Shown one piece after another: positions 13,427 to 52,943 of a stretch of DNA of 64,000 nt. The position numbers and the translations under genes are program-made. Origin of the DNA: Bradyrhizobium sp. B097 (GTDB lineage: Bacteria > Pseudomonadota > Alphaproteobacteria > Rhizobiales > Xanthobacteraceae); assembly GCF_038957035.1 (NCBI RefSeq), contig NZ_CP152412.1, positions 8,862,501 through 8,926,500 of the forward strand, written 5' to 3'. Under the pieces are notes generated by a model. The model was not told the origin of the DNA and ran no database searches. It saw only the letters and a list, made by a program, of their open reading frames with translations. The stretch's first letter is position 1; every line of letters begins with the position of its first letter.

Positions 13427-14026
13427 TCACGGCTTCACGTAGGCCCATCCCTTCTCCTGCAGTTCCATCACACGCACGACGCCGGACTTCACGACTTCCG
13501 CCTGCTTGATGATCGGGATCGACTTGTTCTCGGCCTTCTGCATCTTCTCCTGCGTGTTACCGCAGGCCTTGAACGACACCTCGGGTGAACTGAGGGCCAT
13601 TTCCTCGATACGAGCCTTCACCGGCGACGTATCCTCGCGGAGCATGTGCAGGCCCGGGCCGAACGTGACCACCTCGATCTTCACCTTTTCGCCAAGACCC
13701 TTGTAATACTCGGCCACGTTCGTTGCGTTGTTGAGCGAGAGATTCATGGCGGCAGGGTCATTGCTGTTCACCTGCAGGACCAGATGATGCTCCTTGCCTT
13801 TCGGCGCCGCCGGATCGTGCATGCGCGCAAGTGCGGCGCGCTTGCGTGTTTCGGCGGCGGCGCGCGGCGTTTCAGGCTTCCGAGCGTCGCTCGCCGGGGC
13901 TGCCGCGGACTGCGCGGTCGGCACCCAGTATTTCCCACCTTGCTCCGCCGCCGCCAAGGACGTGGAAGCCAGCACAGCGATGGCAGCCATCGCAATAAGC
14001 TTCGCAACAGATTCAAAATCGCGCAT
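13427..14026 (-). CDS. DsrE/DsrF-like periplasmic protein
   Basis: Starting at ATG 14026 behind GGAGA gives 199 residues with a signal peptide (LIAMAAIAVLASTSLAAAEQ). The mature protein has a basic spacer, then a DsrE-like domain (HHLVLQVNSNDPAAMNLSLN, a NATNVAEYYKGLGEKVKIEVVTFGPG block, and the Cys in FKACGNT). DsrE-type proteins take part in sulfur relay; exported versions such as this one are uncharacterised. It is the last gene of a four-gene operon (18247 to 13427) whose products all appear exported; the gap to the upstream TagO-like gene is 38 bases. Confidence 0.82.
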   Translation of the reverse strand: MRDFESVAKLIAMAAIAVLASTSLAAAEQGGKYWVPTAQSAAAPASDARKPETPRAAAETRKRAALARMHDPAAPKGKEHHLVLQVNSNDPAAMNLSLNNATNVAEYYKGLGEKVKIEVVTFGPGLHMLREDTSPVKARIEEMALSSPEVSFKACGNTQEKMQKAENKSIPIIKQAEVVKSGVVRVMELQEKGWAYVKP

Positions 14027-14064
14027 CAAAGATCTCCATCTCGAAAAATCGCCGAACACACTTC

Positions 14065-14688
14065 TCAATTGCTGGGCCTTGCGACAGCGAGCGGCCATTT
14101 GCAGATCGCGGCCATCCTCGCTCGCATCGCGTCCAGCCCCGCGAGCGAGAATGTTGCGTCATGGGCAGCCCCGGCACCGGGTGAGAGGTGGACAGCAAGG
14201 ACCGCGCTATCGGGAAGCGATTGCAACAAGCGAACGGCATCGCCCGCGACGGCGACGCCGGAACCAAACGACGGCACGGTTGCCGCGACCTGCGCCGGCG
14301 GACCGTCGTTGATGCGATAAGAAATCGCATAGCCGTCACCGCGGCCCGAGATCGCGGGTCCCGCGAAGGACAATTCGGTCCGCCCGCCGCGACACCGGAT
14401 CGACAGCTTCATCGACGATTCGACCGAATCGTAGATCGTTGCAGTGGCGATCGGTGAGTAATCGACGGGCGACGTCGTCTCGCTGATCGTCCAATTGCCG
14501 GCTCTCGACGCATCGCGGCGGGTCGGCGCAGTGGCGTGCGACAGCTTGTCGAGGCACTCCAGACGCGCTTCACGTTGCAGCTGGGAACAGGCGCGTAGCT
14601 GTGCCATGGGGTCTTCCATCCCTTGCGCCAGGGCAACGCCGTTGACGGCGGCGGTTGCGGCAAGCAGCGGGACGGCGAGCCTGGTCAT
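14065..14688 (-). CDS. TagO/VasI-like protein (type VI secretion-associated family), orphan
   Basis: A 207-residue exported protein (signal to about VALAQ, residue 21). The order of motifs follows the TagO/VasI family: CSQLQREARLECLDKLS, then WTISETTSPVDYS, KLSIRCRGGRTEL, a central ISYRINDGPPA, a FGSGVAVAGDAVRLLQSL helix and a final AICKW. TagO proteins are periplasmic accessories encoded with some type VI secretion systems, but no T6SS gene is in view. Its ATG overlaps the stop of the TAXI-type gene by four bases (ATGA), so the two are translationally coupled. The start at 14688 is preferred to an upstream 14784. Confidence 0.75.
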   Translation of the reverse strand: MTRLAVPLLAATAAVNGVALAQGMEDPMAQLRACSQLQREARLECLDKLSHATAPTRRDASRAGNWTISETTSPVDYSPIATATIYDSVESSMKLSIRCRGGRTELSFAGPAISGRGDGYAISYRINDGPPAQVAATVPSFGSGVAVAGDAVRLLQSLPDSAVLAVHLSPGAGAAHDATFSLAGLDAMRARMAAICKWPLAVARPSN

Positions 14689-15743
14689 TGCGATGCCCGT
14701 GCCGATTGACGATCGAGCCACGCCTGCGCGGCAGGAAAGCGCGTGAGACCGGGCACCGTCGCTCCGAGGTTGATCGATTTCCACTTCGGGTCGAAGCCCG
14801 GTCCTTGCAGCCTGTCGATACGCGAGAACAGATGATCGACGAAGCGTGCAACACGCTCAAAACGGTTGGTGCTGGCCGGCCAATTGAAGGCAACGAGAGC
14901 GGTCGGCACGGCGATCGTGGCGACGCGATCACCCGGCTTGATCAGATTTGGGTAATCGGCGGCATCGAGAGTTGCCGGCAGATAATAGTCCTCGAACTTG
15001 CTGTCATACGGGACGGGCAGGAACTTGAAGCCGGATTCAAACCGGCCTTTCACAAATGCATCGACCGGCTTCGAGGTAATGAAGACGACGGCCGCCATGT
15101 CGCCTTTCCGCATCTGCTCGAGCGCGACCTGGTGCGGAATGAACGTCTTCTCGACCTCGATGCCGAGGCGACTGAAGATCAGCGGACCCGAATAGGCTGC
15201 GGCGGTACCCTGGTTGTTGAAGTTCACCTTCTTGCCGGCGAGGTCGCTCAGGCTCCGAATCTCCGGCCGAACGAAGATATGCAGCTCGGACGGGAACAGG
15301 TTCAGGACATAGGCGATCCGTCGCTGGATGTCCGGCACCTGGCTCTTGTATTCCTCCAGTGCGTCGGAATTGATGATCGCAGCATCAATGCCGCGCAAAT
15401 ACAGCAGCGAGTTCAGATTCTCCACGGCGCCTCGCGTCACCACCGGCAGCACGTGCAGATTGTCGCCGTCATCGGTCACGCGGGCCATCTCCGCGGCCAG
15501 GCGGATCGGCGCGCCCTCGAGAAGGCCGCCGGCGAGACCGACGACCCAGGCATTCATGGCGAGAACTTCGGGCCTGACCTGGGACGATTCGGCCCGGATC
15601 AGGCGAGCCTTGTGAGGCTGACCATGTTGCGGCCGCGCATCCGCCGCGGGCGGCTGCGGCACAACGAGCAACGACACCAGGGTCGCAAGCAGGAACAGCG
15701 GACGCAATCCGGTAGATCTTTTCATCGGCCAGCTCCTTTGCAC
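14685..15743 (-). CDS. TAXI-family TRAP-type solute-binding protein, without permease genes
   Basis: The 352-residue protein carries a signal peptide (LFLLATLVSLLVVPQ...ADA) and the TAXI architecture: an N-terminal domain with LPVVTRGAVENLNSLLYLRGID, a hinge VRPEIRSLSDLAGKKVNFNNQGT, and a second lobe with HQVALEQMRKGDMAAVVFITSKP. TAXI proteins normally deliver organic acids or glutamate to DctQM permeases; none is encoded here. A second start at 15725 (MKRSTG) is possible. It lies 44 bases after the coiled-coil gene and overlaps the TagO-like gene, so it is the middle of an operon. It could be a receptor rather than a transporter part. Confidence 0.85.
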   Translation of the reverse strand: MQRSWPMKRSTGLRPLFLLATLVSLLVVPQPPAADARPQHGQPHKARLIRAESSQVRPEVLAMNAWVVGLAGGLLEGAPIRLAAEMARVTDDGDNLHVLPVVTRGAVENLNSLLYLRGIDAAIINSDALEEYKSQVPDIQRRIAYVLNLFPSELHIFVRPEIRSLSDLAGKKVNFNNQGTAAAYSGPLIFSRLGIEVEKTFIPHQVALEQMRKGDMAAVVFITSKPVDAFVKGRFESGFKFLPVPYDSKFEDYYLPATLDAADYPNLIKPGDRVATIAVPTALVAFNWPASTNRFERVARFVDHLFSRIDRLQGPGFDPKWKSINLGATVPGLTRFPAAQAWLDRQSARASQ

Positions 15744-15787
15744 GACATCCCGTCAGCGCGTTCGGCCTTGCTGCAAGGATCGCTCGA

Positions 15788-18247
15788 TCAGCGCAGCGCC
15801 TCGAATCGCGCCTTTGCCTCCTTGATTCCACCGGCCTCGGCCTTGGCGTAGAGATCGCGAGCCTTGGTCGCATCGCCGCGCGTTCCATACGTTCCCCAGG
15901 TCGAGAGGGTCAGCGGATCGTAGGTTTCCGCGAGCGCGAAGCTTGCCTGGGCGCTGCCCGTCTCGGCGACGCGTTCCAGCACGATCCGCGCAGCACCGAT
16001 GTCACCCTGTTCCAGCAGCAGGCGCGCCCGCGCCATCAATCTCGCCTCTTGCGCATTGTCGTCAGGGGCGGCCTCGACATTGCCTACGATTCGCGTCGGC
16101 ACGGCCCGGTTCTCGATTGATGCCACCGCTGCGCCCGCCGGCTCCTCCTGTATGGCCCGGCCAGCGTTGCCGGTCGTGGCGACCTGAGACGCGGCGGGCG
16201 GCACTTTCGCGGCGAGCGTACCGACGTCGCGGCGCGCCGATGCAAGATCCCGCTCCAATTGCTCGGCCCTGCCACGCTCCTTCTGCAGCAGGCTGCGCTG
16301 CTCAGCCACAGCCTGCTCGGCGGCCTGCTTCGCCCCGACGGCTTGCGTGTTCGCTGCGGCCACCCGCTCGGTCTGGGCATCGAGTTCGCGGCTCTTGGTT
16401 GCAAGATCGCGAGCTAGTTGTTCCGCCCGCTGTCGCTCGCGCTGGAGCGATTGTCGCAACTCAGCGGTATCGCTTGATTCCGCCTGTTTGTGCTGCGCTG
16501 CCTCGTCGCTGGCTTTGGCCGCCTGAGCCTCGTAGGCGTAGACTTTGCTGCGCGCTGTCGCGAGATCCTGCGCCAGAGCGTCGGCCCTCTCATGCTCCTT
16601 CTGCATCGACCGCCGCTGTTCAGCAGCGCCGGCTTCCGTTGTCAGCTTCAGCTTGGCGAGTTCATCGTGTGCCTTGGCCGCCGCTGCCGTTTGCATCTCC
16701 ACGTCACGACGCGCCGCCGCGAGGTCCAGTTCCATCCGCGCGGCCCGCTCGTGCTCTTGCCCCAGCGACTTCTGCAAGTCCGCCGCACCGCCTTCGGAGG
16801 CCTTCTTCAGCCGGGCCGCCTCATCGCTCACCTTGGCCGCAAGCGCGGTTTGCGTTTCAACGTCACGACGCGCCGCCGCAAGGTCCTTCTCCAATCGCGC
16901 GGCACGCTCATGTTCCTGCCCCAGCGACTTCTGCAAGTCGGCTGCGCCGCCTTGCGAGGCAGCCTTCAGCTTAGCCGCCTCATCGCCCGCCTTGGCCGCC
17001 AACGCGGTCTGCGCTTCCACGTCACGACGAGCCGCCGCGAGGTCCTTCTCCAATCGCGCGGCACGCTCATGTTCCTGCCCCAGCGACTTCTGCAAGTCGG
17101 CTGCGCCGCTTTGCGAGGCAACCTTCAGCTTAGCCCCCTCATCGCTCGCCTTGGCCGCCAACGCGGTCTGCGTTTCCACGTCACGGCGAGCCGCCGCAAG
17201 GTCCTTCTCCAACCGTGCGGCCCGGTCGTGCTCCTGTCCCAGCGACTTCTGCAGGTCCGCCGCTCCGCTTTGCGAGGCAGCCTTCAGCTTAGCCGCTTCA
17301 TCGCTTGCCTTGGCCGCCAACGCGGTCTGCGTTTCCACGTCACGGCGAGCCGCCGCAAGGTCCTTCTCCAACCGTGCGGCCCGGTCGTGCTCCTGTCCCA
17401 GCGACTTCTGCAGGTCCGCCGCTCCGCTTTGCGAGGCAGCCTTCAGCTTAGCCGCTTCATCGCTTGCCTTGGCCGCCAGCGCTGATTGCGTTTCCACGTC
17501 TCGACGCGCCGCCATAAGCTCCTTCTCCAGTCGCGCGGCACGCTCGCGCTCCTGCGCCAACGGCTTCTGCACGTCCGCTGCGCCGCTTTGCGAGGCCGCC
17601 TTCAGCCGGGCCGCGTCATCGCTCGCCTTGGCCGCCAGCGCGGCCTGCGTTTCCACGTCCCGACGCGCCGCCGCCAGCTCCTGCTCCAATCGCGCGGCCC
17701 GCTCATGCTCCTCCGCCAGGGGCTTCTGCAAGTCCGCTGCGCCGCTTTGCGAAGCCTGCTTCAGCTTCGCCGTCTCGTCGTTTGCCTTGACCAGCAGTGC
17801 AGCCAACTTGTCCAGATCAAGACGAGCCGCCTCCAGCTCCTGTTCCCGCTGCGCGGTTCGCCCACGCTCCTCGCGCAACGATCTCTGCAAGTCCGCTACG
17901 TCGCCTTGCGGCATGGCCTTCAGCGATTTTTTCAGCTTTTCAGCTTCGCTCTGCAGAGCATTTTCGACTTGAACCGAATTTTCGCGTTCCTTGGTCAGCA
18001 AGCCCTGCAGCAATTCGATGTCTTTCCGCGCTGTCGCGAGTTCGCGGGCGAGCGCGTCCGCGCTTTGCGGTTGTTCCGCGGCTGGACCAGCGTCGCCCGC
18101 AGGGCTCGTCTTGGCTTGTGCAAGTTGCGGGGAATTGCCGGCGATGCCATTGGACTGCGCGTGCGCCCCGCCGGAACCCGGCACATCTGAAAGACACGTC
18201 ACCGCGAGGGTTGCTGCGAACCATAGCGGGGCCGCCCGGCGCATCAT
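15788..18247 (-). CDS. exported coiled-coil protein with 53-residue tandem repeats and C-terminal Sel1-like domain
   Basis: From ATG 18247 the product is 819 residues. A signal peptide ends near GGAHAQ (about residue 30). From about residue 70 to 640 the chain is a long Ala/Glu/Lys/Arg coiled coil made of about ten units of 53 residues, each with the pattern ARLEKDLAAARRDVETQTAL, AAKASDEAAKLKAASQSGAA, DLQKSLGQEHERA. The C-terminal 85 residues (ARLLLEQGDIGAARIVLERV, FALAETYDP, ARDLYAKAEAGGIKEAKAR) match the Sel1/TPR-type ends common in Rhizobiales. The frame remains open to an ATG at 18385. It is the first gene of the four-gene exported operon. A role as a periplasmic spacer or scaffold is inference. 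Confidence 0.85.
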   Translation of the reverse strand: MMRRAAPLWFAATLAVTCLSDVPGSGGAHAQSNGIAGNSPQLAQAKTSPAGDAGPAAEQPQSADALARELATARKDIELLQGLLTKERENSVQVENALQSEAEKLKKSLKAMPQGDVADLQRSLREERGRTAQREQELEAARLDLDKLAALLVKANDETAKLKQASQSGAADLQKPLAEEHERAARLEQELAAARRDVETQAALAAKASDDAARLKAASQSGAADVQKPLAQERERAARLEKELMAARRDVETQSALAAKASDEAAKLKAASQSGAADLQKSLGQEHDRAARLEKDLAAARRDVETQTALAAKASDEAAKLKAASQSGAADLQKSLGQEHDRAARLEKDLAAARRDVETQTALAAKASDEGAKLKVASQSGAADLQKSLGQEHERAARLEKDLAAARRDVEAQTALAAKAGDEAAKLKAASQGGAADLQKSLGQEHERAARLEKDLAAARRDVETQTALAAKVSDEAARLKKASEGGAADLQKSLGQEHERAARMELDLAAARRDVEMQTAAAAKAHDELAKLKLTTEAGAAEQRRSMQKEHERADALAQDLATARSKVYAYEAQAAKASDEAAQHKQAESSDTAELRQSLQRERQRAEQLARDLATKSRELDAQTERVAAANTQAVGAKQAAEQAVAEQRSLLQKERGRAEQLERDLASARRDVGTLAAKVPPAASQVATTGNAGRAIQEEPAGAAVASIENRAVPTRIVGNVEAAPDDNAQEARLMARARLLLEQGDIGAARIVLERVAETGSAQASFALAETYDPLTLSTWGTYGTRGDATKARDLYAKAEAGGIKEAKARFEALR
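16740..17780. repeat. 159-bp in-frame tandem repeat array inside the coiled-coil gene
   Basis: Units recur every 159 bases (53 codons). Two neighbouring units, about 17145-17303 and 17304-17462, are almost identical at the DNA level, including synonymous positions, which points to recent duplication. Outer units are progressively diverged. Confidence 0.85.
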
Positions 18248-18527
18248 CCCCGGAGCGAATGGCGCTCGATCCGATCTGACGCGCGAGCCGGCACGTTCAC
18301 AAGTTGAGTTCCCGTCAACGCAAATGACGATGCTCTCATGTCCGCGCGCGTCCAGTATCACCCGCCGCATGGTGATATCGCCCATTATGATGCGGCATCA
18401 TAGGGCTCACCGGCTCACGGATACTATGACCCGCAAGGATTACCCCTGTTAACCGCGCAGCTTTGGGCGAGGCCGAAGCATCGAGTTCAGCCGCGGCCGG
18501 CGCGACGGCGCAAGGTGAGCGCTGTGC

Positions 18528-43666: not shown

Positions 43667-44455
43667 TCACCACCACATCGCCTCGCCGGCGCTGGATTTG
43701 TCCGTGACGTCACGCACCCGGCGGTCCAGCGAGCGGTCGAGCGCGGTCAGCACGCGGCGCTTGAAAGTGTCGAACAGCTCCGACTTGCGGTCGCGCGGCC
43801 GCGCCAGATTGATGGTGATCTCCTCGAACAGCCGGCCCGGCCGCGGCCGCATCACCAGCACGCGGTCGGCCAGCACCACGGCCTCGTCGACGTCATGGGT
43901 GACCAGGATCAGGGTCGGGCGCGTGTCGGCCCAGAGATCGAGCAGATGGTCCTGCAAATCGCGCCGCGTGAAGGCATCGAGCGCCGAGAACGGTTCGTCA
44001 AGCAGCAGCACTTCGGGCTGCGGCACCAGCGCGCGGGCGATCGCGACCCGCTGCGCCTGCCCGCCGGAGAGCTCACGCGGCCAGGCCGCAGCCTTGTCGG
44101 CGAGGCCGACGCGGGCGAGCGAAGCGGCGACGCGCTCGCGCCTGACCTCGGCCGGGAGATCGGCGAGACCGAAGCCGATATTGTCGGCGACGCTGAGCCA
44201 GGGCAGCAGCCGCGGCTCCTGGAAGATGATGCCGATCTTGGCGTGCGGTGAGGTGATGACCGCATTGTCGAGCGCCACGCTGCCGGTGCTGGCGCGATCG
44301 AGGCCGGCGATGGCGCGCAGCAGCGTCGACTTGCCGCAACCGGAGCCGCCGATGATCGCGATGATCTCGCCGGGCGGGATTTCGGCCGAGAAGCGTTCCA
44401 GCGCATGGACGCCGTTCGGATAGGTCTTGCCGACATCCTTCAGCGCCAGCATCAC
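43667..44455 (-). CDS. ABC transporter ATPase, nitrate/sulfonate/taurine type (SsuB/TauB-like)
   Basis: The 262-residue ATPase has Walker A GGSGCGKSTLLRAIAGLDR, Q-loop FQEPRLLPW, signature ELSGGQAQRVAIARAL, Walker B VLLLDEPFSALD and the switch LVTHDVDEAV. The spectrum of motifs fits the SsuB/TauB/NrtD group. It energises the permease encoded just upstream; the two genes overlap by four bases (ATGA). The binding protein gene lies further upstream on the same strand. The substrate is predicted to be an aliphatic sulfonate or related anion. Confidence 0.95.
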   Translation of the reverse strand: MMLALKDVGKTYPNGVHALERFSAEIPPGEIIAIIGGSGCGKSTLLRAIAGLDRASTGSVALDNAVITSPHAKIGIIFQEPRLLPWLSVADNIGFGLADLPAEVRRERVAASLARVGLADKAAAWPRELSGGQAQRVAIARALVPQPEVLLLDEPFSALDAFTRRDLQDHLLDLWADTRPTLILVTHDVDEAVVLADRVLVMRPRPGRLFEEITINLARPRDRKSELFDTFKRRVLTALDRSLDRRVRDVTDKSSAGEAMWW

Positions 44456-45291
44456 TGCCCTCCCCGCGCGCCGAACGCATCCTGCCAGCGCAGCAGCGGG
44501 GCGGTTGCGACCTCGATCAGCCAGTCGGTCAGCTTGCCAAGGATCGCGAAGATCACGATCGCGGCGAGGATCTGCGCCGGCTTGCCGAGCTGCTGGCCGT
44601 CGAGCAGGAGATAGCCGAGACCTTCGGAGGCGCCGATCAGTTCGGCCGCGACCACGAACATCCAGCCGAGGCCGAGCCCGACCCGCAGCGACACCACATA
44701 GGCCGGCAGCACAGCCGGCAACAGGATGCGGCGGATCATGGCGGGTCCGGAGAGGCGGAACACGCGGCCGACCTCGACGATCTTGCGATCGACCGACAGG
44801 ATCGCGCCCATCACGCCGAGATAGATCGGAAAGAACACGCCGACCGCGATCAGCGCGACCTTCGAGGTCTCGAAGATGCCGAGCCAGAGCACGAACAGCG
44901 GCACCCAGGCGAGCGAGGGGATTGCGCGCAGCGCCTGTACGGTCGGATCAAGCAGCCGCTTGGCGAAATCCCAGTAGCCGGAGATCGCGCCCATGATGGT
45001 GCCGGCGACGACGCCGAGCGCAAAACCCGCGCCGACGCGCCAGAGCGTGGCAAGGATATGGCGCGACAGCTCGCCGCTTTTCGCGAGCGAAACGATGGTC
45101 TCGAACACCTTCGACGGTGGCGGCACCAGGCGGCCGTTGGAATAGCCGAGATGGACAACCAACTCCCAGCCCAGCGCGAGAGCGACCGGCAGCACGAGCC
45201 CGAGCACCGGGCGCGCATAACGCGACCACCCCGCCGCCGCACGCGGCGCGGCCGTCTGTTCCAGCGCGGGCAGGTCAACGGTCATGGCCAT
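44452..45291 (-). CDS. ABC transporter permease, sulfonate/nitrate type (SsuC-like)
   Basis: The 279-residue permease has six membrane helices and the EAA-like loop around FRLSGPAMIRRILLPAVLPAYVVSLRVGLGLGW. IPSLAWVPLFVLWLGIFETSKVALIAVGVFFPI is highly typical of SsuC/TauC. ATG 45291 and ATG 45285 are equally possible starts; a longer frame back to 45375 is rejected because it lies in a repeat and is Pro-rich. It forms the membrane channel with the ATPase gene that overlaps its end. Confidence 0.93.
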   Translation of the reverse strand: MAMTVDLPALEQTAAPRAAAGWSRYARPVLGLVLPVALALGWELVVHLGYSNGRLVPPPSKVFETIVSLAKSGELSRHILATLWRVGAGFALGVVAGTIMGAISGYWDFAKRLLDPTVQALRAIPSLAWVPLFVLWLGIFETSKVALIAVGVFFPIYLGVMGAILSVDRKIVEVGRVFRLSGPAMIRRILLPAVLPAYVVSLRVGLGLGWMFVVAAELIGASEGLGYLLLDGQQLGKPAQILAAIVIFAILGKLTDWLIEVATAPLLRWQDAFGARGGQ

Positions 45292-45344
45292 AGCAAGAAC
45301 TATTCTTCCGGCGGGATTGCAAGGTGGGGGCGATGACCTCTTAT

Positions 45345-45500
45345 CCTCCCCTGGAGGGGGAGGATCGGTTCGCATGAAATGCGAACCGAGGTGGGGTGAA
45401 GGTCGCTCGTAACGGGCGCTGCCGGAGTGGAGGGATCACCCCACCCCGGCTCACATCTCGCTTCGCTCGCTGTGAACCGACCCTCCCCCTCCAGGGGAGG
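45345..45500. repeat. inverted repeat, family H, inside the ABC operon
   Basis: CCTCCCCTGGAGGGGGAGG (45345-45363) is matched perfectly by CCTCCCCCTCCAGGGGAGG (45482-45500). It sits between the binding-protein gene and the permease gene. Confidence 0.8.
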
Positions 45501-45513
45501 GTGAACGATCGAG

Positions 45514-46488
45514 TTAATTCGTCGGCAGCGGGACCTGATCGTCGATCAGGCTGTCGAGCGCGGCCTTCACGTCGGTCTTGGCGTCGATCACGCCGGCCTG
45601 CTGCAAGGCGAGGCCCGCGGCCAAGATCGACTCGCGCTGGGGGCTACCGATCCGGCTGTGGGTCAGCTCGGTACGCTCCTTGAGCTGCTTGTCGACCACG
45701 GCGTCCGGCAGCTTGGTGACCGCGATGAAGGTCTTCTTCAGCTCGTCATAGTTCGCCAGCGAATATTTCCTCGCCTCCTCATACGTCGCGAGCACGCGGC
45801 GGACGATATCCGGGTGCGCTTTCAGGAACTCCTCGCGCACATTCAGAATGCCCCAGGTGTTGGCGTCGGCCTTGCGGTAGAACAGCTTGGCGCCGTCCTC
45901 GACTTCCGCCTGCGCCATCATCGGGTCGAGGCCGGCCCAAGCGTCGACGTCGCCGCGGATCAGCGCGGTCTTGCCGTCGGCGTGCTGCAGCAGCACCGGC
46001 GTGATGTCCTTCTCGGTCAGACCGGCGCCGAGCAGCGCCCGGACCAGGAAGATGTGCGGGTCGGTGCCACGGGTCACCGCGACGCGCTTGCCCTTGAGGT
46101 CGGCGACCGACGTGATCCTGGAGTCCTTGGTGGTGACCAGCGCGGTCCATTCGGGGCGCGAATAGACGTAGATCGACTTGATCGGGTTGCCGTTGATCCG
46201 GGCGACCAAAGCGGCCGAGCCCGCGGTCGAGCCGAGATCGATCGAGCCGGCATTGAGGAATTCGAGCGCCTTGTTGGAGCCGGCCGACTGCACCCAGACG
46301 ATGCTGATGCCGTCCTTGGCGAACTCCTTCTCCAGGAGGCCCTTCTGCTTCAGGACCATCGACACCGGATTGTAGGTCGCCCAGTCGATCCGGATCTCCT
46401 TCAGCGTGTCGGCGGCCAGCGCCGCGCCGGGCAAGAATGTCGAGACCGCGAGCAGCGCCGCAAACGCGCGCCGGGAAAAATTCTGCAT
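45514..46488 (-). CDS. ABC transporter substrate-binding protein, aliphatic-sulfonate type (SsuA-like)
   Basis: From ATG 46488 (behind AAGGGGGCG) the product has 324 residues. RRAFAALLAVSTFLPGAALAAD is the export signal. The fold is the two-lobe NMT1/SsuA type: IRIDWATYNPVSMVLKQKGLL, IVWVQSAGSNKALEFLNAGSIDLGSTAGSAALVARINGNP, LKGKRVAVTRGTDPHIFLVRAL. This matches sulfonate or nitrate binders. It is the first gene of the transporter, divergent from glnD; a 222-base gap with a hairpin follows before the permease gene. Confidence 0.93.
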   Translation of the reverse strand: MQNFSRRAFAALLAVSTFLPGAALAADTLKEIRIDWATYNPVSMVLKQKGLLEKEFAKDGISIVWVQSAGSNKALEFLNAGSIDLGSTAGSAALVARINGNPIKSIYVYSRPEWTALVTTKDSRITSVADLKGKRVAVTRGTDPHIFLVRALLGAGLTEKDITPVLLQHADGKTALIRGDVDAWAGLDPMMAQAEVEDGAKLFYRKADANTWGILNVREEFLKAHPDIVRRVLATYEEARKYSLANYDELKKTFIAVTKLPDAVVDKQLKERTELTHSRIGSPQRESILAAGLALQQAGVIDAKTDVKAALDSLIDDQVPLPTN

Positions 46489-46685
46489 TCGTCGCCCCCT
46501 TGGGTTGATTAAGAAACACACTTTTAATTCAATGAGTTAGCCTTGCGGTCAACGAGAAAATCTCTACCCTTTGTTTGGCGGCGCGAGCACAGGCTTGCTC
46601 TGGGTGCCCAGGAAACAGAATGGAGCTGCTGTCCATATACTTTGGTCAGTGACAGCAACAGCTTGGTCCGATATCGGATGAACGT

Positions 46686-49629: not shown

Positions 49630-51576
49630 TCAGCCGAACAGCCGCATCAGCAAGGCCTTGCCGACCGGCGCCGCGCGCACGCCGTGGAAGGCGCGGACAT
49701 ATTCGCCGGCATAGAATGCGCGCACGACATTGATCCGCGTCGCAACCGCGTCCTCGAAGCGGACGCCGAAGCCGTCACGGGTGCGGCGGACCACGAGCGC
49801 GTTCACGTTCTGGCCGTAGACATTGCACTTGATCGAGGCGCCGATTGCGGGCGGGGCCGGATCGATGAAGCGCGCGCCCGAAATCGAGACGTCGGCCATC
49901 CGCACCAGCCGCGGCTCGGCGCCTTCGTGGATCAGGATCGGCTCGTCGCGCTCGAAACGCTCGGCCTTGCGACGCCGCGGCTGCTCGATGCAGATGAAGC
50001 ATACGATCGCGAGCACGGCGCAATTGTACAGGCTCCAGGCCAGCGCCAGCCCGCCATAGGCGATGTTTTCACCGCGCAGATGCAGGATGAAGGCGTAGGC
50101 GATGGCGACCAGCGTGATCAGTAAGGCGCCGCCGTAGAGCCGCAGCAGCGGCCATTCGATGAAGCGGCGGTTGCGGTCGCCGCCCTTGGCGGTCACCTTG
50201 AACTTGTGGCCTTGCGGCTTGGCGAGGCCGGTCACGACGGCCTTCAAGACCGCGGGTGCTGCAATGTATTGCGAGACGTCGGTCATGATCGCGAGCGAGC
50301 GGCCGTGCGAGAGCCACGCCATCGTGAAGGCGTGCCAGACGTAGAACGGCAGGAAGTATTTCAGGAGCTCGAACAGGTCGGCATGAACCGCCTTGATCCC
50401 GAACAGCAGATAGAGCCAAGGCACGACCAGGCCGAAAGTCTTGGTGCTATAGACCGCCGCCCAGCTCATGAAGGCATCGACCAGCGACAGCCGGTCCATG
50501 AATGCGAGCCTGGATTGCCGCGAGAACGGCCCGCTGCGGCCCCTGAAGATCTGCATGAAGCCGAGGCACCATCGCCCGCGCTGGGTGATGTATTCCTTCA
50601 ATCCCTCCGGTGCGAGGCCGATCGTCAGGCGCTCGTTGAGATAGACCGTACGCAGTCCCTTTTCCTTCAGGCGCAGCGTGACGAGATAATCCTCCGTCAC
50701 CGAATCGGTCGGAAAGCCGCCGATCTGCATCAGTCCGGAGTAACGGATCAGCGATGAGGTGCCGCAGCAGAACGCAGTGCCCCAGGCGTCCTTGGCCGGC
50801 ATCAGGATGTCGAAGAAGAAGCGCTGCTCGTCGGGCCAGACGTCGGTTGCGGCGAGATTGGTCTGGATCGGATCCGGATTGATGAAGTGCTGCGGCGTCT
50901 GCACGACGCCGACGGCGCCGTCCTGCATCAGGCTGATCGCCCGCGTCAGGAAGTCCGGCATCGGGACAAAATCCGCATCGAGGATCGAGATGAATTCCGG
51001 CCGGTCCGGCAGGGCGGATACGTGCTGGAGCGCCTGATTGATGTTGCCGGCCTTGGCGTGCCGGTTGTCCGGACGGGTCAGATAGTTGCAGCCAAGCTCC
51101 TGGGCGAGCCGGCGCAGCCAAAGCCGCCGCCCGTCGTCGAGCACCCAGACGCGATAGTTGGGATAGTTCAGCCCCGTCGCGCCGATGATGGTGCGCTCCA
51201 GGATCGCCTTCTCCTCATTGTAGGTGCAGATGAAGACGTCGACGAGCGGCGCATCCGTCCGCGCTGTGGATTGGCGCAGGATGGCATTGACCTCGGGCGA
51301 GCGGTCAATGGTGCGGCTGAGGAACAGCAGCGACAGGCACACCGCGATCATCGAGGCCGCCTCCGCAGCCACGAAGGGATAGCCGACCACCGCGTCGGCG
51401 GTGAGTCCCAGAGGCGGCAAGGTCTGGGTCACCCGCCAGACGAAGTAGTGCAGCAGCAGAACGAACGACATGCCGGCCATCATGATGCGGGCCAGCGTCT
51501 GCTCGCGCCGGAGCAGCGGCAGGATCGCAAGGCAGGCGCCGAAGGCAACCAGCCCGGGCGCGAATGCCGCCATCAT
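49630..51576 (-). CDS. cellulose-synthase-like glycosyltransferase 2 with C-terminal PilZ domain
   Basis: The 648-residue inner-membrane processive glycosyltransferase has D,D,D,QxxRW signatures: VWVLDDGRRLW, FISILDADFVPM (DxD), SVTEDYLVTL (TED) and QRGRWCLGFM. Membrane helices flank the catalytic domain. The C-terminal PilZ domain carries RRRKAERFER and MADVSISGARF (RxxxR and D/NxSxxG), the c-di-GMP-binding motifs. It should polymerise a beta-glycan activated by c-di-GMP. Start ATG 51576 overlaps the stop of the HlyD-like gene by four bases (ATGA); 51573 is the alternative. No BcsB/BcsC is present, and polymer identity is unknown. Confidence 0.92.
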   Translation of the reverse strand: MMAAFAPGLVAFGACLAILPLLRREQTLARIMMAGMSFVLLLHYFVWRVTQTLPPLGLTADAVVGYPFVAAEAASMIAVCLSLLFLSRTIDRSPEVNAILRQSTARTDAPLVDVFICTYNEEKAILERTIIGATGLNYPNYRVWVLDDGRRLWLRRLAQELGCNYLTRPDNRHAKAGNINQALQHVSALPDRPEFISILDADFVPMPDFLTRAISLMQDGAVGVVQTPQHFINPDPIQTNLAATDVWPDEQRFFFDILMPAKDAWGTAFCCGTSSLIRYSGLMQIGGFPTDSVTEDYLVTLRLKEKGLRTVYLNERLTIGLAPEGLKEYITQRGRWCLGFMQIFRGRSGPFSRQSRLAFMDRLSLVDAFMSWAAVYSTKTFGLVVPWLYLLFGIKAVHADLFELLKYFLPFYVWHAFTMAWLSHGRSLAIMTDVSQYIAAPAVLKAVVTGLAKPQGHKFKVTAKGGDRNRRFIEWPLLRLYGGALLITLVAIAYAFILHLRGENIAYGGLALAWSLYNCAVLAIVCFICIEQPRRRKAERFERDEPILIHEGAEPRLVRMADVSISGARFIDPAPPAIGASIKCNVYGQNVNALVVRRTRDGFGVRFEDAVATRINVVRAFYAGEYVRAFHGVRAAPVGKALLMRLFG

Positions 51577-52943
51577 GGCTTTGCCGCATCCGCGTTGAAC
51601 ACCACCCGCCCGGTGCGACCGACGGCGCATTCCTTGCCCGTGGTATCGAGCGCGGGCATCGAGACCGTCACCCGATACGGTTCCTTGTTGAGCGCATCCG
51701 GATTGATCGCGAGGTTTGCGGGCGCACCTGACGCGCCGGTGAGGTTGACGATCTCGCCCTTGATCGCGGCGCTGCCGTCGTTCGGCTCAAAGCTCGCCTG
51801 CTCGCCGAGCTTGAGGCGGTTATAGACGCCTTCGGTGACGTTGGCGGTGACTACCGCGCCGCTGCAATCGAGCAGCTTGAGCAGGGGCTGCCCGGCCCTG
51901 ACATCCTCGCCGGACGACGTCATCATCTCCCAGATGCGCCCGGTAACCGGCGCCCTGATGTCGGCCTCCACCCGGTTGATGTAGTGCAGCTGCTCCGAGG
52001 CAATCTCGTGGGTGAGCCAATCGATCTCGGCATCGGAATGCACCAGATCGGCGCGCAGATCGCTGACGCGCTGGCGCATCTCCTCTTCGCGCTGCACGGA
52101 ACTCGGCCGGTCATTGTAGCTGTCGCCAAGGTAGGTGCCGTTCCTTGCCGCCGTGAGTTCGACCTTGGCGGCGTCGAGGCGGCGCTGCGCGCCGATCTCG
52201 GTCTGCTGGGCGATCGCTTGCTCGCGCGTCAGCCGGGCCATTTCGACCGTCGAGACGCTGCCCGATTTGATCAGTGACGAGGCGCGTTCAACCGCCGCCG
52301 TCGCCTCTTCCCGCCGCGCGGCCGCGGCCTCGATCGCGGTCTGGATTTCGGCGATGCGCGCCTGGAGCTGGAGAATGCGACCGTCGCGGAACTGGGCCGC
52401 CTGGCGCGCAAGGTCCTGCTGCGCCGTCTCGGCGGCCGCAAGCTTGGCGGCGAAACTCGGGCGCTCATTTTCCATCCGGGACATCTGCCGCCGAAGATCG
52501 TCGAGCCGCACGCGATCGCCGCGGGCGTTGACGACATGAAGGATCGCATCGCCCTCGTGGACCACGCTGAGCTGCGTCGAGCCCTGCGGCAGCTTCGCGC
52601 TCACGGTGCCGTCGATCGGCGAGCGCAAGGTCACGATCCTGGCATTGACCACGGCCTCGACGCTCGAGGTCTGCAGCACGGCCTTCAGCGGCAGCCATCC
52701 GAAGACGGCCACGATCGCAAGGCCAATGCCGACCTTGAGCACGCGGCGAACCCAGCGGTCCGAGCCTGCAGGTGCTTCGGGATGGGGAGCGCTATCGCTG
52801 ACGGGCTCGCTCACTGGCTCGTCGTGCGCCGGCTGCAACCGGTCTTGCAGATCGCGCTGCAATCCGCGTGCGCCTTCGGCCTCATCCTTGGAGACGGAAA
52901 CTTTGCCTTCAAGAGAGGGCTTCTGCTGCTGTGCCTGATTCAT
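51573..52943 (-). CDS. HlyD-family membrane fusion protein paired with the glycosyltransferase
   Basis: The 456-residue protein has a disordered, acidic N-terminus (residues 1-65), one membrane helix (VLKVGIGLAIVAVFGWLPLKAV), a lipoyl half (ARIVTLRSPIDGTVSAKLPQG), a long coiled coil (about 140-310), the second half (ADIRAPVTGRIWEMMTSSGEDVRAGQPLLKLLDCSGA) and a beta domain. The pairing with a PilZ glycosyltransferase recalls Alg44/Alg8 and HlyD-linked polysaccharide export, so it may bridge the synthase to the periplasm. It is the first gene of the two-gene operon. Confidence 0.88.
   Translation of the reverse strand: MNQAQQQKPSLEGKVSVSKDEAEGARGLQRDLQDRLQPAHDEPVSEPVSDSAPHPEAPAGSDRWVRRVLKVGIGLAIVAVFGWLPLKAVLQTSSVEAVVNARIVTLRSPIDGTVSAKLPQGSTQLSVVHEGDAILHVVNARGDRVRLDDLRRQMSRMENERPSFAAKLAAAETAQQDLARQAAQFRDGRILQLQARIAEIQTAIEAAAARREEATAAVERASSLIKSGSVSTVEMARLTREQAIAQQTEIGAQRRLDAAKVELTAARNGTYLGDSYNDRPSSVQREEEMRQRVSDLRADLVHSDAEIDWLTHEIASEQLHYINRVEADIRAPVTGRIWEMMTSSGEDVRAGQPLLKLLDCSGAVVTANVTEGVYNRLKLGEQASFEPNDGSAAIKGEIVNLTGASGAPANLAINPDALNKEPYRVTVSMPALDTTGKECAVGRTGRVVFNADAAKP

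Follow-up and report, generated by a model that had tools for sequence, protein, structure and literature searches.

Binding proteins of the TAXI type are named as subunits of transporters, and those characterised in two studies work with TRAP or GltS transporters (PMC11574862, PMC12344293; the papers cited here are considered as excerpts, to which statements on them are limited). In the TAXI-TRAP system, glutamate binding by VcGluP is dominated by Tyr45 and Gln93 with help from Ser75, and equivalents of Tyr45 and Gln93 are found in 78% and 54%, respectively, of TAXI sequences generally (PMC11574862). A TAXI protein outside TRAP has already been described, together with GltS (PMC12344293). Solute-binding proteins also stimulate transmembrane receptors (PMC9602780), the Sel1 protein ExoR acts on ExoS-ChvI, and the IalB-domain protein RgsG and the Sel1/TPR protein RgsF are periplasmic proteins at the growing pole of Sinorhizobium (PMC7327166). 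Here we analyzed a four-gene locus within a 64,000-nucleotide stretch (the window) of the 9.25 Mb single-contig genome of Bradyrhizobium sp. B097 (the home genome). The locus encodes a coiled-coil protein with a Sel1/TPR-like C-terminal tail, a TAXI protein, a TagO-like protein and a DsrE-like protein. We favour, at slightly less than even probability, the reading that this operon encodes a periplasmic receptor module and not a transporter, in which the TAXI protein would engage a Sel1/TPR-tailed envelope protein and two helpers would have been added.

The locus resembles the TAXI-TRAP transporters (VcGluP-VcGluQM and kin) in the sequence of its binding protein, which matches TIGR02122 and NMT1_3. 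By contrast to these transporters, the four-gene operon includes no TRAP permease (no fused QM gene adjoins TAXI), Pro and Asn replace Tyr45 and Gln93, and the constant neighbours are Sel1/TPR-tailed, VasI/IalB-like and DsrE-like proteins. With the TAXI-GltS system (BP0403, PMC12344293) the locus shares a TAXI protein outside TRAP and the presence of helical material, but the home genome has 0 matches to GltS (PF03616) and the helical part is here a separate protein. Like the binding proteins that stimulate receptors (PMC9602780), the TAXI protein is soluble, has no adjoining transporter and has a partner that is likely anchored in many relatives; unlike them, its Sel1/TPR-tailed partner has no recognised kinase or methyl-accepting domain among those scanned. 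ExoR and the Rgs proteins have similar periplasmic Sel1/TPR and IalB-type domains in envelopes of Rhizobiales, but TAXI is not among the features given for them in the excerpt of PMC7327166 and no histidine kinase is evident in the four-gene operon. Finally, some orthologues of the TagO-like protein are similar in sequence to VasI/TagO (PF11319) and the fold of this third product is that of IalB and MotY, but the home genome has no type VI secretion marker and the operon no flagellar or Bartonella-type context. The four-gene set was not found described in the open-licence literature searched, which agrees with a preliminary description of the locus that knew of no such system.

Conservation of the four-gene cassette

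The four open reading frames all lie on the minus strand, in the order coiled-coil/Sel1, TAXI, TagO-like and DsrE-like, as the preliminary description had it, and are presumably co-transcribed as an operon. A genome-contig scan with the TAXI protein revealed 101 stretches encoding a relative, of which the best 80 of 101 were kept. The TagO-like protein was searched in 149 family genomes, with 22 matches in 19 genomes, and in 10 of these 19 it was adjoined by TAXI. Protein searches for relatives returned 1819 and 4992 matches, without genomic context. The 90 loci with this TAXI protein (L001-L090) were examined by six-frame profile search for the tail, TagO-like and DsrE-like proteins, and the locus counts given here are from such searches, as gene prediction misses some genes (e.g., TagO-like in L189-L190). 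The loci were picked by TAXI or TagO-like similarity and are mostly from Bradyrhizobium, and thus are not independent.

By this approach, the TagO-like gene was found directly downstream of TAXI on the same strand in all 90 loci, with a gap between the two profile matches of 0-27 bases in 85 and of 78-102 bases in five. A Sel1-like tail was near TAXI on the same strand in 83/90 loci. The DsrE-like gene was detected in 80/90, of which 76 have it downstream on the same strand and four have it divergent or on the opposite strand. The complete order tail-TAXI-TagO-DsrE was observed in 63/90 loci and tail-TAXI-TagO in nine, six of which hold only about 2 kb downstream. The other orders were TAXI-TagO-DsrE without tail (seven loci), TAXI-TagO-DsrE-tail (six) and TAXI-TagO-tail (one). 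Scattering of the genes in homologous genomes, which the preliminary description had named as the outcome that would count against it, is not borne out by these orders. When 874 predicted proteins of 102 loci were clustered, the four cassette families were present in 89, 84, 80 and 69 loci; a fifth constant partner was not found, the next commonest family being in 14/102 loci (rarer families unannotated). The four genes are a conserved cassette, an accessory module found in Bradyrhizobium, Bosea, Tardiphaga and some further alphaproteobacteria.

Judged by the locus, Bradyrhizobium species are the nearest relatives. Flanking TauD and Rieske genes were considered as members of the cassette and rejected: TauD (9/12) and Rieske (12/12) are present among the nearest loci (L001-L012, some of which are truncated), and the sole match farther out was a weak TauD in L077, the home locus (L081) being set aside. 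Thus, the cassette has different surroundings elsewhere, which suggests that it is mobile. The TagO-like protein was also found without TAXI, in 12 of the 22 matches (L091-L102, 25-38% identical; short loci were fetched) and, as a weak match without TAXI nearby, in three class genomes (L192-L194). Of 385 genomes sampled across the class, five have the strong TAXI form (>580 bits), and the same five have a TagO-like match of >100 bits. By record titles, the module is present twice in Bradyrhizobium JYMT SZCCT0428, on separate contigs (L029 and L063), and one copy lacks DsrE. Three records titled as metagenome-assembled genomes of Acidobacteria (L043, L073 and L079) also carry the module, with TAXI proteins 69-79% identical, through either transfer or binning contamination.

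Pairing of TAXI with the Sel1/TPR-like tail

More distant TAXI cousins (190-290 bits) were identified at 13 loci in ten further genomes of the 385-genome sample. In a maximum-likelihood tree, the TAXI proteins of the four-gene clade are one branch (support 100/97) and, with 12 cousins, make up a branch with support 100/100 that is distant from the remaining TAXI proteins encoded by the home genome; long branches are flagged in this tree, the cousins group together at only 83/62, and L182 was left out. A tail gene adjoins TAXI in 10 of the 13 cousin loci, from six families, arranged as tail-TAXI in six, TAXI-tail in two and divergently in two. That the two genes stay adjacent although their arrangement changes is the best indication that both proteins work together. 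Neither TagO-like nor DsrE-like proteins gave a match in any of the 13 cousin stretches by six-frame profile search. From these comparisons, the TAXI and Sel1/TPR-tail pair looks like the older core, and the TagO-like and DsrE-like genes look like later additions. In the home genome, the tail had two matches at E≤1e-3 in 9.25 Mb, its own included, of which the second was weak. The cousins L181 and L185, of one family, are near what by eye is an apparent zinc ABC uptake set.

The TAXI protein and its ligand site

The TAXI protein is above the cut-off of PF16868 (cut-off of 27) and matches TIGR02122 at an E value of 3e-10 (39 bits), under the curated cut-off of 84. TIGR02122 matched 30/30 aligned TAXI sequences at E≤0.001. 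A search of PDB with the TAXI profile gave no match at E≤0.001, the best being a weak and partial one to 4ddd (E 0.004). No other aligned product is as well conserved as the TAXI protein, which across 30 sequences has a mean column identity of 72% with 112 invariant columns, compared to 51% for TagO-like (30 sequences) and 52% for DsrE-like (25 sequences). Its cleft motifs are under strong constraint.

Positions of VcGluP were placed by motif and published numbering, without aligning the VcGluP sequence. By this assignment, the cousins retain Tyr, Gln and Ser in 11/12 each (motif alignment). By contrast, the four-gene clade has an invariant Pro73 at the Tyr45 site and an invariant Asn119 at the Gln93 site, each in 30/30 sequences, and either Ala or Pro at the position of Ser75; Glu147, at the position assigned to Glu125, is invariant. 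The change of Tyr/Gln to Pro/Asn makes glutamate an unlikely ligand of the TAXI proteins of the four-gene clade, as judged from the alignment. One pair, TAXI and a Sel1/TPR tail, comes with two types of pocket, Tyr/Gln and Pro/Asn.

The coiled-coil partner

In the partner proteins the C-terminal tail is constant and the remainder variable. The partner in the window has seven coiled-coil repeats of 53 residues. A profile of the tail family (alignment A4) matched the Sel1 repeat protein 8sxq in PDB at an E value of 5.4e-15. At E≤0.1, TPR_14 matched 21/25 tails and Sel1 12/25; the matches of the window tail are below cut-offs. With the whole coiled-coil protein of the window, Pfam returned no Sel1 or TPR match; such matches required the isolated tail or its family as the query.

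A survey of hydropathy, in which start codons are unverified except for that of the window protein, found a stretch over threshold in 32/47 partner proteins, 28 of which have it after at least 30 residues. The latter suggests a membrane anchor and a cytosolic part in 28/47 partners. By the positive-inside rule, the arginines that precede many of the partner helices place the tail in the periplasm. The clade of the window has a weak hydrophobic stretch with an AxA-like site at its end; thus the partner in this clade may be freed into the periplasm. A continuous coiled coil of about 600 residues would be about 90 nm long, which exceeds the depth of the periplasm. With this length, and with a helix after at least 30 residues in so many partners, the role of spacer that the preliminary description gave to the long coiled coil is doubtful. 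In two cousin partners, both of G425, the helix is preceded by an AAA-like stretch (PF13191, below cut-off), and these two may resemble ExeA/DamX. A motif of about 70 residues (IDTAPRDG...PTHW) precedes the hydrophobic helix in coiled-coil proteins of many of the loci between L048 and L073, and had no Pfam match in the two proteins scanned (L055 and L062).

The TagO-like and DsrE-like proteins

The VasI profile (PF11319) matched seven of 30 TagO-like sequences at E≤10, the best at 1.5e-7, with no hit to the window protein itself, and it had no match in the home genome at E≤1e-3. The fold of the TagO-like protein matches IalB and MotY, yet the Pfam IalB profile is absent from the 11 families hit by any of the 30 sequences at E≤10, in a scan where the filters of HMMER drop most weak matches. 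The TagO-like protein is thus apparently a relative of VasI by sequence with an IalB/MotY-type fold: the TagO-like label given in the preliminary description has some support from the sequences of the family, but the fold points to IalB and MotY.

Of the 25 DsrE-like sequences, 16 matched PF02635 at E≤0.1; the score of the window protein is under the cut-off of 22.7 bits. The family profile (A3) matched MTH1491 (1l1s) in PDB at an E value of 2.9e-10, and Cys155, invariant in 25/25 sequences, aligned to a cysteine of 1l1s. Both the profile and the conserved cysteine place the protein among the DsrE/DsrF-like proteins.

A proposed receptor module and its alternatives

In the proposed receptor module, TAXI would bind a small ligand and its open/closed switching would result in docking on the Sel1/TPR-like tail of the partner. 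The partner, a scaffold that is apparently membrane-anchored in many relatives, would relay this state to the envelope, or into the cell where a cytosolic part exists. In the lineage of the window the ligand site would have been re-made, from Tyr/Ser/Gln to Pro/Ala-or-Pro/Asn, for a ligand that is probably not glutamate. The VasI/TagO-like protein would be an added periplasmic helper, as a structural or docking factor, and the DsrE-like protein another, which with its one invariant cysteine may handle a thiol or sulfane-sulfur state. The receptor stimulation by solute-binding proteins, ExoR with ExoS-ChvI, and RgsG with RgsF lend support by analogy. The preliminary description had proposed TAXI as a sensor or ligand carrier; a receptor role outside transport is plausible, and the sensing, the ligand, the docking, the helper roles and the physical assembly of the four products are what we infer. 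A wider proposal, which we hold more tentatively, is that such pairs represent a class of envelope receptors not yet described: TAXI would have been paired with a Sel1/TPR-tailed membrane protein, instead of a transporter, since deep in Alphaproteobacteria, and the four-gene version would be a mobile form of it, its pocket re-made and two periplasmic helpers added.

Several observations weigh against the receptor module. A scan of ten proteins, of which eight are tail partners, gave no hit to a kinase, a cyclase or any other known output domain, and the Pfam scan of the coiled-coil protein of the window likewise gave no known output domain. The window partner has no stretch over the hydropathy threshold and has the look of a protein with a cleavable leader. 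The tail was not found near TAXI in 7/90 loci, nor did it match in cousin loci L181 (whose divergent neighbour has a Sel1 hit under the cut-off), L185 (a divergent neighbour) and L188 (neither tail match nor divergent neighbour), and its frequency was counted in the home genome only. G496, one of the five genomes with the strong TAXI form, has TAXI and a TagO-like gene with an internal stop, and over about 7 kb neither the tail nor DsrE gave a match. In the nearest relatives L001, L002, L004 and L005 the coiled-coil frame is short or broken, perhaps from collapse of tandem repeats in draft assemblies. The AlphaFold model of TAXI is poor (predicted local distance difference test score of 39.8), so the change of the site rests on sequence alignment.

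A further such observation is the TRAP permease itself, which bears on the first alternative: that TAXI feeds a TAXI-type TRAP permease or other secondary transporter encoded elsewhere, with the other three products incidental or aiding substrate access. We consider such accessory transport unlikely, although it is the role of the characterised TAXI proteins. A fused TRAP permease (TRAP_fused, with absence taken as no match at E≤1e-50) was found in 13/13 carriers of the class sample (G genomes) and 43/47 carriers reached through loci; these sets overlap (L074 and G026 are apparently the same genome) and a few of their carriers lack the tail or DsrE at the locus. Shared use of the permease in most carriers is possible. 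By contrast, no TRAP_fused was detected in four of the 47 (L032, L039, L042 and L044, genomes of 8.5-8.6 Mb in a set for which completeness values are not given), and in these all four module genes are present. The cousins G218, G380 and G425 have no TRAP_fused at the same threshold, and G218 and G425 no GltS match either; G425 has two TAXI-tail pairs. Thus, there are TAXI-tail pairs in genomes in which neither of the known transporter partners was detected. No further family was present in more than 14/102 loci, those families being unannotated. Carriers without a match to a known TAXI permease are where the idea of transport can be ruled in or out.

The home genome itself has 32 matches to TIGR02122, of which three are over cut-off, versus one fused TRAP permease over its cut-off; this sole TAXI-type permease is about 0.6 Mb away and has its own adjacent TAXI, which also speaks against its use by the four-gene locus. 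The statement of the preliminary description that none of the known partners is encoded here is thus correct for the locus but not for the genome. Some of the weaker TIGR02122 matches are probably ABC-type binding proteins, and several matches are in open frames of 430-480 residues. Several TAXI genes of the home genome are nonetheless not located near its one strong permease, and a conserved non-transporter partner would, if true, explain part of this surplus and give a testable role. The module is real and conserved, and its interest is in a specific non-transporter neighbour for orphan TAXI proteins.

Of similarly low probability is a structural envelope complex, in which TAXI would be a docking fold within a periplasmic or pole-associated scaffold like the Rgs proteins of Sinorhizobium, without ligand sensing. 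The long repeat-rich coiled coil, the Sel1/TPR tail and the IalB/MotY-type fold are what such a scaffold would have, and RgsF and RgsG, with their Sel1/TPR and IalB domains, are periplasmic at the growth pole in the excerpt of PMC7327166. However, TAXI is strongly conserved, also in its cleft motifs, which looks like a sign of ligand binding, and the module is patchy (TAXI is beside TagO-like in 10/149 family genomes), unlike an essential part of a growth pole.

Periplasmic handling of sulfur or thiols is improbable to a greater degree. Here the invariant Cys155 of the DsrE-like protein, which aligns to a cysteine of MTH1491, would carry sulfur, TAXI would deliver a sulfur compound, and the others would hold the two together. 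The DsrE-like gene is, however, absent, divergent or on the opposite strand in 14/90 loci (six of the ten absences are in short loci) and had no match in the cousin loci, and thus is not core. In addition, no further family recurs beyond 14/102 loci, in a set that is unannotated and in which sulfur genes were not sought by name.

A type VI secretion accessory set around the TagO-like protein, suggested by the VasI matches and by TssB (PF05591) in two of 13 carriers (G214 and G334), is highly implausible and was rejected, as TssB had 0 matches in the home genome, in agreement with the preliminary description that no such partner is encoded, and none in 11/13 carriers, and VasI was not detected in the home genome at E≤1e-3. 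An anti-phage defence system was likewise rejected on the absence of any PADLOC match (0 families for 4/4 proteins, E≤0.01).

Coordinates and start codons

The coordinates of the four genes and of their main features are listed in Table 1. TAXI was assigned the ATG start at 15725, which has GGAG just upstream and at which aligned orthologues begin, versus a GTG at 15743. The gap between the coiled-coil and TAXI genes is thus 62 bases, versus 44 with the GTG start. The preliminary description had given gaps of 44 and 38 bases and an ATGA overlap; the 38 bases between TagO-like and DsrE-like and the overlap of TAXI and TagO-like (ATGA at 14685-14688) stand, and the 44 bases do not.

Table 1. Features of the four-gene locus, in positions of the window.
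Feature	Coordinates	Strand	Remarks
Coiled-coil protein with Sel1/TPR-like C-terminal tail	15788..18370	-	860 residues; alternative starts 18385, 18247
Tandem 159-bp (53-residue) coiled-coil repeats	16671..17924	-	7.0 copies at 16671-17789; longer-period rows to 17924
Sel1/TPR-like tail of coiled-coil protein	15788..16150	-	part in common with TAXI-adjacent proteins of distant cousins
TAXI-type solute-binding protein	14685..15725	-	346 residues; PF16868 30.6 bits
Pro73 codon, TAXI	15507..15509	-	aligned to VcGluP Tyr45; invariant in 30/30 aligned sequences
Asn119 codon, TAXI	15369..15371	-	aligned to VcGluP Gln93; invariant in 30/30 aligned sequences
TagO/VasI-like exported protein	14065..14688	-	207 residues; IalB/MotY-type fold
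DsrE-like exported protein	13427..14026	-	199 residues; PF02635 20.2 bits; profile vs PDB 1l1s
Cys155 codon in FKACGNT, DsrE-like protein	13562..13564	-	invariant cysteine, 25/25

The coiled-coil gene starts upstream of 18247, at 18370 or 18385. The Met at 18370 is the first that the window has in common with all nine near relatives compared, a length difference of 16 codons stays in frame, and relative L007 has no ATG at the position equivalent to 18247. Each of the four products has a hydrophobic stretch and an AxA-like site near its N terminus, as seen by eye without a signal-peptide program, consistent with the signal sequence that had been noted on each. Scans for a promoter (one promoter-like site at 18452-18423, 0.5 expected) and for a terminator (one terminator-like site, 5.9 in shuffles) were uninformative.

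Other genes of the window

An ABC transporter set was observed at 43667-46521 of the window. Its NMT1-type binding protein also matches the TAXI profile (58.5 bits) and has its best Pfam fit to NMT1/THI5. At 49630-52943, a glycosyltransferase of family 2 with a PilZ domain is encoded beside an HlyD-type protein, a pair that perhaps functions in polysaccharide export.

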